DNA from: an uncultured Nesterenkonia sp.
GTDB taxonomy: Bacteria > Actinomycetota > Actinomycetes > Actinomycetales > Micrococcaceae
Length of the DNA stretch: 64,000 nucleotides
Direction: 5' to 3'
NCBI GenBank assembly: GCA_947494195.1
Contig: CANLUC010000002.1
Coordinates: forward strand, 310,001 to 374,000
This document shows, one piece after another, positions 53,821-57,258 of the stretch. Position 1 is the first letter of the stretch, and every line of letters begins with the position of its first letter. The position numbers and the translations under genes are program-made. The notes under the pieces were generated by a model. The model searched no databases. It saw only the letters and a program-made list of their open reading frames with translations, and was not told where the DNA came from.

Positions 53821-55122
53821 ATGCCCACTGGCCCGATGCACCCTGCGTTTTGCACCAGGGGAGTCCTCAAAGGCGCCACGTCTGCCTGCCTGCTGGCCTC
53901 GTTGATGGTGGCAGGGTCCGCCTCGGCGCAGGCGTCCACGTCAGAGTCCGCAGTCACCGCACAGCTTCCGGGCTACCCGACTCCCGGCCAGCCAGTGTCT
54001 CCTGCTGCCGAGGAGCGGCCCTCTACGACCGTGGAGAAGGATGAGAGCGACATCCGAGTGGCGACGCTCCACGCGGGCCTGAGGGCCGGGTCCTCTGCTG
54101 AACTCCTGGACGAGCTTGAGGGGGGAATGCATCCTGCGGCGCGGGTGCTCGCGGAGACCGTGCAGGCCAACGCCCCGGATGTTCTGGTGCTCACCGGCAT
54201 CAGCTATGACGAGAATGAGAAGATCGCGGAGACCCTGAACAGCCAGTACCTCGCCCGCGGCCAGAACGGGCAGACGGGCATGCAGTACTCCTACACCTAC
54301 ACGGCTCCCACGAACTCGGGGATCGATTCAGGTGCCGACCTCGACGGTGACGGCCGCGTGGGCGGGCCTGCCGACGCGATCGGCTACGGAAATCACCCCG
54401 GGGAGCGCGGAATGGCAGTGTTCTCGGCCCACCCCATCGTTCAGGACGAGGTTCGCACCTTCCAGGAGTTCCTCTGGGAGGACATGCCCGAGAACTCGAT
54501 CCCCGAAGGTCAGTTCTCCAACCTCGAGAAGTCCGTGCTGCGACTTCCCAGCACCAGCATGTGGGACGTCCCGATCGAGGTCCCGGGCGAACCCGGACAC
54601 GTCCACGTGGTCGCCACCGACCTCAACAGCTCACCACGGTCCGCGCGCCCCGACGAGGCGCGCAACGAGGACCAGCGTCGCATGGTCACAGATTTCGTCT
54701 CCGGCTCAGCCTGGTATCTCTACGACGACGACGGCGCCCGCGGCGGTCTCGGGGCAGAGGATTCCTTCGTGATCGCCGGCAGCCTGGCCGACGAGCAGGA
54801 GCTGATGACTTCGCCAGCTGAGAAGGTGCCCGAGCTTTCCACTCTGCTGAAGAGCGAAGTGCTGCAGGACCCAGCCCCGGAGGCCGTGACGGATGAGCCG
54901 CTGCCAGAGCGTGACGGGGATGCGGATCCGAAGGCTACTCAGGGACTGAGCAACGGTGAAGCGGTGCGATCTTCTTATGTGCTTCCCGCCACCGCCCTCG
55001 AGGTGGATGGCACGGGGGTCTTCTGGCCCGCAGAGGGCGAGTTCGGCTTTGACCTGGTGGACCCGGCAGAGTCGGCTTCGCCCTCGGGCCGGCTGGTCTG
55101 GCTCGACATCGCCACCAGCTGA
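53821..55122 (+). CDS. Secreted endonuclease/exonuclease/phosphatase-fold protein with lost active site
   Basis: The 433-residue protein has a signal peptide (residues ~1-40, ending ASAQAS). It then follows the plan of actinobacterial secreted EEP proteins: IRVATLHAGL, a GDLDGDGRVGGPADAIGYGNHPGERGM-type block, FQEFLWEDMPENSIP and GVFWPAEGEFGFDLVD. Residues that carry catalysis in the family are replaced: the NEF position reads TGI, the SHPTPP histidine position reads TDLNSS, the AGDxN motif reads AGSLA, the RVDYVLPS motif reads RSSYVLPA, and the final SDH motif reads PSG. It is therefore probably a non-enzymatic paralogue. Location outside the membrane is inferred. Confidence 0.78.
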   Translation: MPTGPMHPAFCTRGVLKGATSACLLASLMVAGSASAQASTSESAVTAQLPGYPTPGQPVSPAAEERPSTTVEKDESDIRVATLHAGLRAGSSAELLDELEGGMHPAARVLAETVQANAPDVLVLTGISYDENEKIAETLNSQYLARGQNGQTGMQYSYTYTAPTNSGIDSGADLDGDGRVGGPADAIGYGNHPGERGMAVFSAHPIVQDEVRTFQEFLWEDMPENSIPEGQFSNLEKSVLRLPSTSMWDVPIEVPGEPGHVHVVATDLNSSPRSARPDEARNEDQRRMVTDFVSGSAWYLYDDDGARGGLGAEDSFVIAGSLADEQELMTSPAEKVPELSTLLKSEVLQDPAPEAVTDEPLPERDGDADPKATQGLSNGEAVRSSYVLPATALEVDGTGVFWPAEGEFGFDLVDPAESASPSGRLVWLDIATS

Positions 55123-55164: not shown

Positions 55165-56121
55165 ATGGCACCGACAAAACGGACGCTCATGCGCACTGCA
55201 GCCACCGGTTTCTTCGTCCAGCGGACGGTGTCCGCGGTCAAGGACCACGCCTTCGATGACCGCGGGAGCCTGACCCCCCGCGCCGAGAGCATGTTGACCC
55301 GGGCGGTGACCGTCCAGCGTCCGATCGTGCTGGCCAATCTGCGCAGGCTGCGCAAGGCCCATCCAGACTTCTCCAACCGGCAGCTCGCAGCTCAGCTGGA
55401 GCGCGAGTTCGTGCGCGGCCTGACCGGCGGCGGCGCGCTCATCGGAGCCACGGCGGCGGTTCCCGCGGTGGGGACGCTGACCTCGTTGGGTCTTTCCGCG
55501 GCTGCGACAGGCACCTTCCTCGAAGCCTGCGCCCTGTATGCCCAGTCCATGGCCGAGCTGTCCGGAATCAGCACCGAGGACCCGGAACGGGCGAAGCTGC
55601 TCGTCATGGGCGTGATGCTCGGAGATCAGGGCCGCAAGCTGCTCAGTGAGCTTTCACAGCAGGCCGGCGGCAAGGGGACAGGACCCTTCGCCTCACTGGT
55701 GCCGATGAACTCATCGTCCAGCTCCCCAGGGATGACCGGTGTGCTGGTCAACCAGATCAAGCGGCAGTTCGTCCGCCGGTTCTTCATCCGTCAGGGCACC
55801 TCCATGGTCGGCCGAGCGATTCCCTTCGGGATCGGGGCCGTCGTCGGTGGAGCCGCCAATCACAGCCTCGCGCGTCAGATCGTGAAGTCGGCTCATCTGA
55901 CCTTCGGCGACCTCCCCGAACACACGCCGGACTCCCTGCTGCACGACATGAAGCGCGCCAAGGAACGTGAGCGACAGCGCGCCGAGCGCCGGCAGCGGCG
56001 GGGGCGCAAACGCGAGATCCTCGCCCAGCGCGGGGCGGCTGGACGGAACAGCGGCAACGCCACGCCTGAGCTCACAGCGGAGAGCAGCTCCGCGACGCCC
56101 GCCAAGACCGCCAGGCGCTGA
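55165..56121 (+). CDS. EcsC-like protein of unknown function
   Basis: The 318-residue protein has a central hydrophobic, Gly/Ala-rich part (GGGALIGATAAVPAVGTLTSLGLSAAATGTFLE and MVGRAIPFGIGAVVGGAANHSLARQIV) like the glycine-rich regions of EcsC-family proteins. A strongly basic Arg/Lys tail follows (KRAKERERQRAERRQRRGRKRE). The second segment, ending in GxxxNHxLAR, is particularly EcsC-like. No function is established. The basic tail may bind nucleic acid or acidic lipid, but that is speculation. Confidence 0.66.
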   Translation: MAPTKRTLMRTAATGFFVQRTVSAVKDHAFDDRGSLTPRAESMLTRAVTVQRPIVLANLRRLRKAHPDFSNRQLAAQLEREFVRGLTGGGALIGATAAVPAVGTLTSLGLSAAATGTFLEACALYAQSMAELSGISTEDPERAKLLVMGVMLGDQGRKLLSELSQQAGGKGTGPFASLVPMNSSSSSPGMTGVLVNQIKRQFVRRFFIRQGTSMVGRAIPFGIGAVVGGAANHSLARQIVKSAHLTFGDLPEHTPDSLLHDMKRAKERERQRAERRQRRGRKREILAQRGAAGRNSGNATPELTAESSSATPAKTARR

Positions 56122-56217
56122 GGCGCCTTCCGGCGACGAACCCTCAGTCACACGATGTTCATCTGCTCTTCTCCGGAGATGCCGCCAGACGGACGTGTCC
56201 CCTTGTCCCCCGAGGCG

Positions 56218-56223
56218 CAGAAT
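56218..56223 (+). promoter_or_regulatory. Candidate leaderless -10 box of the GDPD gene
   Basis: CAGAAT ends 6 nt before the GTG at 56230. Confidence 0.35.
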
Positions 56224-56229
56224 GAGCGT

Positions 56230-57258
56230 GTGACCACTGATCTTGCGCAGACCCACGACCTTCCCAGCGCGTTGCCTGTGGCGCCCCCGGTCGGTCGGAG
56301 TTCACGACACCGCGACCTGTTCTCTCCGGCAGACGCTCCTCATGTGAGACCTGGGGCCGAGTCCCGCCAAGCGATCATCTTCGCCCATCGCGGCTCATCG
56401 GGGCTCTTCCCCGAGCACAGTCGGGCCGCCTATCAGCGCGCCATCGAAGAGGGTGCAGACGGGCTGGAGATCGACCTGCACCTGACCGCCGACGGGGAGC
56501 CGGTCTGCTTCCATGACGCGACCGTGGACCGCACCAGCAACGGCACTGGAGCCGTTGCCGAGCTGAGCCTGGCCCAGCTGCGGTCCCTGGACGTGACCAG
56601 CTGGAAGACCCCCCGTCTGCCCGCGGAGTATGGGGCTCGCCACCAGCAGCTGATGACGCTCTCCGATGTGCTGGAGATGCTTCTTGACGCCGGGCGCGAC
56701 ATCAGCCTCGCCATCGAGTTCAAGCATCCGTCCCCGTATGGCGATCGACTCGAGACCAAAGTGCTGCGGACCCTCCTGCACTTCGGGTGGGATCCCGAGA
56801 CGTCCGTGATCCCCGCCGGAGATGCGGCCGCGCACTCGGTGACGGTCTCTTTCATGAGCTTCTACCCGGGATCGCTGCTCTACCTCACGGAGATGGTGGC
56901 TCCGGACAAGCTGTGCGCCCTGATGAGCGACGTCACCGAGGCGCAGGTGCGGAAGCGGCTGCGTGGGGTGCCGATGGCCTTCGCGGTCCGGCCCGTGGTG
57001 GCCGCAGTGATGCGCGGGACCCTGCGAGATTCAGAGGCCCTGGTGTGGAAGGGGCGCGCCGGCATCGCCGGTCCGGGGCTCGCCTACCTGAGGAAGCACC
57101 GGGCCGAAGTGAAGGCGTGGCTCGCGCGGGGGACGCGTCTGCGGGTCTGGACCGTGGATGATCCGCAGGACGCCCGATTCCTGCTGGACCTCGGCGTTCA
57201 GGAGATCACCACGAACTATCCCGCTCGGCTGCTGGAGGCCGTGACGCCGGCCCGCTGA
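56230..57258 (+). CDS. Glycerophosphodiester phosphodiesterase
   Basis: The enzyme hydrolyses glycerophosphodiesters to glycerol-3-phosphate plus an alcohol. The GDPD TIM barrel begins with IIFAHRGSSGLFPEHS, whose HR pair and glutamate are catalytic. EIDLHLTADGEPVCFHDATVDRTSNGTG supplies metal ligands and the second catalytic histidine. A 45-residue N-terminal extension precedes the domain without a clear signal peptide. The start is uncertain: I chose the GTG at 56230, while an ATG at 56155 is also in frame. Confidence 0.88.
   Translation: MTTDLAQTHDLPSALPVAPPVGRSSRHRDLFSPADAPHVRPGAESRQAIIFAHRGSSGLFPEHSRAAYQRAIEEGADGLEIDLHLTADGEPVCFHDATVDRTSNGTGAVAELSLAQLRSLDVTSWKTPRLPAEYGARHQQLMTLSDVLEMLLDAGRDISLAIEFKHPSPYGDRLETKVLRTLLHFGWDPETSVIPAGDAAAHSVTVSFMSFYPGSLLYLTEMVAPDKLCALMSDVTEAQVRKRLRGVPMAFAVRPVVAAVMRGTLRDSEALVWKGRAGIAGPGLAYLRKHRAEVKAWLARGTRLRVWTVDDPQDARFLLDLGVQEITTNYPARLLEAVTPAR

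Follow-up and report, generated by a model that had tools for sequence, protein, structure and literature searches.

The sphingomyelinase-like proteins Sph1, Sph3, and SphH of Leptospira, which we take to be proteins of the endonuclease/exonuclease/phosphatase (EEP) fold, offer a precedent for the loss of catalytic residues. According to the paper that describes them, a few catalytic residues are missing from Sph1 and Sph3, residual activity has been reported for both, and SphH is called a pore-former (PMC4537108). Pseudoenzymes are a recognised kind of protein and are defined by the absence of conserved catalytic motifs in sequence analysis (PMC10211241). NucH of Corynebacterium glutamicum is described as a nuclease, presumed to be secreted, that belongs to the phosphate-starvation response (PMC3353115). 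A literature search for inactive EEP proteins or EEP pseudoenzymes retrieved none, apart from one paper whose title looked unrelated; terms written with a slash are unsearchable, and the result is weak evidence of absence.

The window (the whole stretch of 64,000 nucleotides that was analysed) contains the following gene of Nesterenkonia.

53821..55122, + strand: degenerate EEP-family protein (putative pseudoenzyme), 433 aa, probably secreted; identified from the ORF, PF03372, and the intact-motif profile

The likeness of this protein to Sph1, Sph3, and SphH is one of description. The Leptospira proteins are paralogues beside an active enzyme and have lost few residues, whereas only the degenerate form was found in Nesterenkonia. 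Here the loss is complete and genus-wide, ten further genera have degenerate relatives, and the locus is occupied by an intact counterpart in three. NucH, compared here by its described role, is a plausible model for the ancestral role; it is described as a presumed active nuclease, unlike the degenerate window protein. The intact-motif actinobacterial EEP proteins share full-length homology, a DxDGDG-like loop, the block order, and, in genera g20, g22, and g27, the locus with the window protein (genera other than Nesterenkonia, g1, are designated by codes). They carry the NEFD, (S/A)HPTPP, GDxN, RVDYVLPS, and SDH motifs, whereas the window protein retains none of the eight residues concerned, and the YP(A/T)PGQP motif described below is confined to Nesterenkonia among the rows compared. 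We consider it likely that the window protein is a maintained, secreted pseudoenzyme of EEP (DNase I-like) descent with a non-catalytic binding role.

The reading frame is intact from the ATG start to the TGA stop, as the sequence-only reading had claimed. The protein matches PF03372 (Exo_endo_phos) with 42.2 bits against a cut-off of 24.5 and thus belongs by descent to the EEP superfamily. The match ends at model position 173 of 225, upstream of the last catalytic blocks, and the same family is recognised at E 0.01 or better in all 29 Nesterenkonia orthologues. A profile of the intact-motif rows (76 rows, representing 75 genes because one gene occurs twice) aligns with residues 20-431 at 326 bits, which bears out the earlier description of a full-length EEP relative with its blocks in order. 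Chance or misaligned motifs were rejected on the strength of this full-length alignment and of the 137 classified homologue rows, which form two well-separated groups by motif state with only two g31 rows between them. The alignment confidence drops near the HPTPP block and after GDxN; misalignment of these blocks in the window protein is unlikely. Sequence searches of the PDB with the window protein and one intact-motif homologue gave no match up to E 1, and a profile of seven intact-motif proteins gave a single chance-level match (E 0.69). Neither the window protein nor three homologues reached the cut-off of any NCBIfam family. The DNase I-like fold, a four-layer alpha/beta arrangement, is presumably retained.

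The 137 homologue rows comprised 29 from Nesterenkonia, 80 from other Micrococcaceae, and 28 from an order-level search. Two of them (L103 and L126) are the same gene of genome G059, so that the rows represent 136 genes; two further rows (L124 and L125) repeat genes already in the set and were not added. Twelve of the 92 family rows from outside Nesterenkonia (nine g23, two g11, and one g21) and the order-search matches in seven genomes of other families are unclassified. Three or more of the eight catalytic residues are missing from 61 of the 136 distinct homologues, although the Pfam family name denotes an enzyme. The degenerate rows are spread over 11 genera (g1, g2, g4, g11, g12, g13, g16, g17, g21, g23, and g31), and all 27 order-level rows from other families are intact. 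Matches came from 99 of the 197 family genomes, representing 17 of 32 genera, and from 41 of 297 order genomes. Because the other 98 family genomes had no match, the gene is dispensable in many relatives. Two g4 genomes (G032 and G157) hold a degenerate copy at the conserved locus and an intact-motif copy elsewhere. Two g31 proteins, L105 and L115 (loci L180 and L181; genomes G180 and G084), have a partly degraded active site, with 4 and 5 of the eight residues left, respectively; the other g31 copies examined retain the active site. Two observations concern the reading frames of intact-type homologues. One in genus g42 (G312:C6:31926-33145) matches as two pieces in different open frames and is a candidate broken gene or assembly error. 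Two g22 homologues, L045 and L046 (G200 and G189), have one TAA within the aligned stretch, which perhaps reflects only an upstream extension of the alignment.

Eight positions (N, E, H, D-x-N, D, and D-H) carry the metal and acid-base chemistry in EEP enzymes of the DNase I/APE1 type. They correspond to the following sites in the window.

54070..54072, + strand: catalytic Asn position, here His84; N in 76/76 intact-motif and 2/29 Nesterenkonia rows, H in 23/29
54193..54198, + strand: Asn-Glu (NEF) position, here Thr125-Gly126; N and E at 1.00 in intact-motif rows, TG in 29/29 Nesterenkonia rows
54619..54621, + strand: catalytic His (SHPTPP) position, here Asp267; H in 76/76 intact-motif and 0/29 Nesterenkonia rows
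54781..54789, + strand: D-x-N (GDxN) position, here Ser321 and Ala323; D and N in 76/76 intact-motif rows, 1/29 and 0/29 in Nesterenkonia
54973..54975, + strand: Asp of RVDYVLPS, here Ser385; D in 76/76 intact-motif and 28/30 other degenerate rows, S in 27/29 Nesterenkonia rows
55084..55089, + strand: Asp-His (SDH) position, here Ser422-Gly423; D in 76/76 and H in 75/76 intact-motif rows, 5/29 and 0/29 in Nesterenkonia

Every one of the eight residues is replaced in the window protein (N84H, E126G, H267D, D321S, N323A, D385S, D422S, and H423G). TGIS stands for NEFD, TDLNSS for (A/S)HPTPP, AGSLADE for LGDLNAD, VRSSYVLPA for LRVDYVLPS, and PSGRLVW for SDHRLVW. The sequence-only reading had proposed that the NEF, SHPTPP, AGDxN, RVDYVLPS, and SDH motifs are all replaced and had called for an alignment with active homologues; in the alignment with intact-motif EEP homologues, the catalytic residues are indeed absent at the aligned positions. 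All eight residues are kept in 75 of the 76 intact-motif rows and seven in the remaining one. The numbers fall to none in 21 and one in 8 of the 29 Nesterenkonia rows and, leaving aside the two from g31, to between 0 and 4 in the 30 other degenerate rows. All 61 degenerate rows have Gly or Asp in place of the Glu of NEF. The window protein has neither the metal-binding nor the catalytic residues of a catalytic EEP enzyme, and by the absence of the conserved catalytic motifs it is, at the sequence level, a pseudoenzyme. EEP-type phosphodiester hydrolysis is not expected because all metal-binding and acid-base residues are gone, and the protein is very probably dead as a catalyst in the EEP sense.

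Three further features lie in the N-terminal part of the protein.

53821..53934, + strand: putative signal peptide, approximately residues 1-38, with a hydrophobic core and an A-x-A end (hydropathy and inspection; cleavage site approximate)
53974..53994, + strand: motif YPTPGQP, residues 52-58, near the start of the mature protein; 27/29 Nesterenkonia copies
54337..54366, + strand: retained DLDGDGRVGG loop, residues 173-182; invariant positions in Nesterenkonia

The 15-residue mean Kyte-Doolittle hydropathy is 1.4-1.6 from residues 15-23, and ASAQA follows; residues 31-42 read AGSASAQASTSE. A hydrophobic leader with an A-x-A end fits a signal peptide, and the protein is probably secreted. It has no cysteine after residue 40. 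The pattern [YF]P[AT]PGQP is present in 27/29 Nesterenkonia copies, 0/76 intact-motif rows, and 0/30 other degenerate rows (the two g31 rows were not counted). The DLDGDGxxGG loop, which we take to resemble a Ca2+-binding loop, is unchanged across the 29 Nesterenkonia copies at D173, D175, D177, G178, G181, and G182. A DxDGDG-like loop is found in most, not all, of the other homologues shown; a highly diverged degenerate copy from g13 (L123, genome G041) is without it.

The genes that follow in the window are conserved neighbours.

55165..56121, + strand: EcsC-like protein, 318 aa, conserved downstream neighbour; PF12787 at 21.3 bits, below the cut-off of 30.4
56155..57258, + strand: GDPD (glycerophosphodiester phosphodiesterase family protein), 367 aa, second neighbour; PF03009 at 143.2 bits

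The gaps are 42 bp from the EEP gene to the EcsC-like gene and 33 bp from there to the GDPD gene. An EcsC-like gene is the next one found downstream on the same strand in 29/29 Nesterenkonia genomes. In 35 neighbourhoods, which were chosen by hand rather than at random, mostly span about 16 kb, and are in some cases cut by contig ends, the EEP gene has an EcsC-like gene nearby in 21 cases and a GDPD-like one in 18, at distances of up to several kb. The shared locus holds degenerate copies in g1, g2, g4, g11, g12, g16, g17, g21, and g23. Because it holds an intact-motif gene in three genera (g20, g22, and g27), catalysis was probably lost in place. On the other side of the locus, g4, g12, g17, g27, and g31 have genes that resemble a PHO4-family transporter and Pst-like ABC genes, named by a Pfam run in one g4 locus (L159) and by similarity in the remainder. 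Because these genes adjoin the locus in five genera, the ancestral enzyme may have belonged to phosphate scavenging, a link that comes from the neighbours alone. Six Nesterenkonia neighbourhoods (one a contig of only 8 kb) contained no Pst-block gene; the phosphate context is therefore ancestral at best. A pattern search for PhoP-box-like repeats upstream of 33 loci, intact and degenerate, found none, and the chance expectation is also near zero.

The number of losses was approached with trees built on thinned rows (88 of the 137; 52, after removal of four long or divergent rows; and 54). In the gene tree, from which the motif columns were excluded, the main degenerate lineages lie on one side of a branch supported at 98/92, and a quick gene tree with g23 added gave the same branch a support of 95. 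The loss in g31 is separate from the rest (AU p 0.0013). The rpoB tree places the degenerate g23 beside the intact g22 (100/99) and puts the degenerate g17 into the same group together with the intact g20 (90/89). It requires at least five state changes over 33 rows, of which four are forced by starred branches, in a count that mixes copies at and off the locus. Gene trees constrained to rpoB-like shapes were not rejected (AU p 0.198, 0.062, and 0.222). Several degenerate rows have long branches in the gene tree, and the placement of L123, with an end branch of 2.26, is unreliable. On these trees, the loss count would be one to three, plus the separate g31 loss. A single ancient loss would have been followed by transfer or a hidden duplication, whereas a count of two or three would mean losses in place. 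It is rather unlikely that a secreted phosphodiesterase at one Micrococcaceae locus was converted into a pseudoenzyme several times independently (in the main lineage, g17, g23, and g31). If this were true, repeated conversion would imply that a shared non-catalytic function was selected for, e.g., that of a phosphodiester sensor or teichoic-acid-binding protein, and that the losses were not due to chance.

The loss of every active-site motif could be the mark of a gene in decay, i.e., a former enzyme drifting once it was no longer needed; the partial loss in L105 and L115 of g31 and the shortening of one Nesterenkonia copy (L035) to 335 aa point in the same direction. The pattern within the genus argues against decay. 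The gene is present in 29/30 Nesterenkonia genomes, the sole genome without a match being 65% complete, and no stop lies inside the match in any of the 29, at identities down to 44%. For eight Nesterenkonia pairs, three of which share the same three genomes, dN/dS (NG86) is 0.068-0.22, and YN00 gives 0.08-0.12 for seven of the eight. The corresponding NG86 values are 0.119-0.265 for five intact-motif pairs, and 0.098-0.273 for five other degenerate pairs; three neighbouring genes compared within one pair of genomes gave 0.061-0.172. The intact-motif rows have 102 columns with a conservation of at least 95%, and 42 of these persist in 90% or more of the 29 Nesterenkonia copies. Another 29 of the 102 are kept in fewer than 10% of the copies, and these include seven of the eight catalytic columns (hypergeometric P = 0.0005). 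Fifty-two columns are conserved jointly, in at least 90% of the intact-motif rows and at least 93% of the Nesterenkonia copies. The gene is thus maintained by selection. The stop-free matches and dN/dS rule out sequencing error and tell equally against decay, a reading that is largely refuted and that we regard as very improbable. The sequence-only reading had favoured a maintained pseudoenzyme over decay and had asked whether dN/dS is below 1 in related genomes; purifying selection was found, and together with the 29/30 presence, the intact frames, and the same downstream gene in every copy, it supports that view.

Fixed replacements might instead belong to a re-invented enzyme, whose catalytic residues have migrated or changed (e.g., around His84, Thr125, Ser166, and Ser385) or which works without a metal. 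At seven columns that are conserved in the intact-motif rows, Nesterenkonia has a different residue fixed at a frequency of 85% or more (V123, T125, G126, S166, R286, T373, and S385). Among the new residues at former active-site or conserved positions, T125, G126, and S166 reach a frequency of 1.00, T373 0.97, S385 27/29, and H84 23/29. However, positions 267, 321, 323, 422, and 423 vary among several residues within the genus, and we hold a new enzymatic activity to be improbable. The conserved placement ahead of the EcsC-like and GDPD genes would suit a regulatory partner that binds an active secreted enzyme to tune it, or acts as its chaperone, much as pseudoenzymes with other folds serve their active relatives. 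Allosteric partnering is among the described pseudoenzyme modes (PMC10211241). In 29 Nesterenkonia genomes, a search for an intact family member to pair with found none; each had one match, always degenerate. We therefore consider a regulatory role a minor prospect, albeit a better one than renewed catalysis. The same result does not agree with the earlier term degenerate paralogue, since in Nesterenkonia no intact copy accompanies the degenerate one.

For the maintained, secreted pseudoenzyme that we prefer, the following course can be proposed. The ancestral enzyme at the conserved chromosomal position would have had its EEP motifs intact; it was probably a phosphodiesterase or nuclease that was secreted, and possibly served phosphate scavenging. 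The catalytic residues would then have been lost, with the scaffold, including the DxDGDG loop, kept under purifying selection. The old substrate cleft would now lie outside the membrane with other residues fixed in it (T125-G126, S166, S385, and often H84). The rebuilt cleft may bind a partner protein or a ligand, the latter perhaps a polymer or metabolite that contains phosphodiesters. A ligand-binding role is plausible at somewhat less than an even chance, and a partner-binding or scaffold role is a more tentative proposal. The pseudoenzyme may act together with the proteins that the two following genes encode, the EcsC-like protein and the GDPD. A pseudoenzyme throughout one genus, together with intact genes at the same locus in three others, amounts to a natural experiment in enzyme repurposing, and the matched intact and degenerate orthologues allow the function of the scaffold to be tested without the chemistry.

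The source genome has six PF03372 places, including that of the window. Four of the others (L001, L002, L003, and L006) carry GDxN and SDH and were considered as active close relatives. A search with the window protein at E 1e-5 matched none of the four, which are therefore not close relatives. None of the other 28 Nesterenkonia copies is as reduced as the shortened L035 (genome G013), which is without the region of the RxSYVLP block and part of the C-terminal region. Approximately 1.65 kb past the end of the window lies an EEP gene with GDFN and SDH motifs (G000:C2:375650-376417), which we take to be probably exonuclease III/AP-endonuclease-like.
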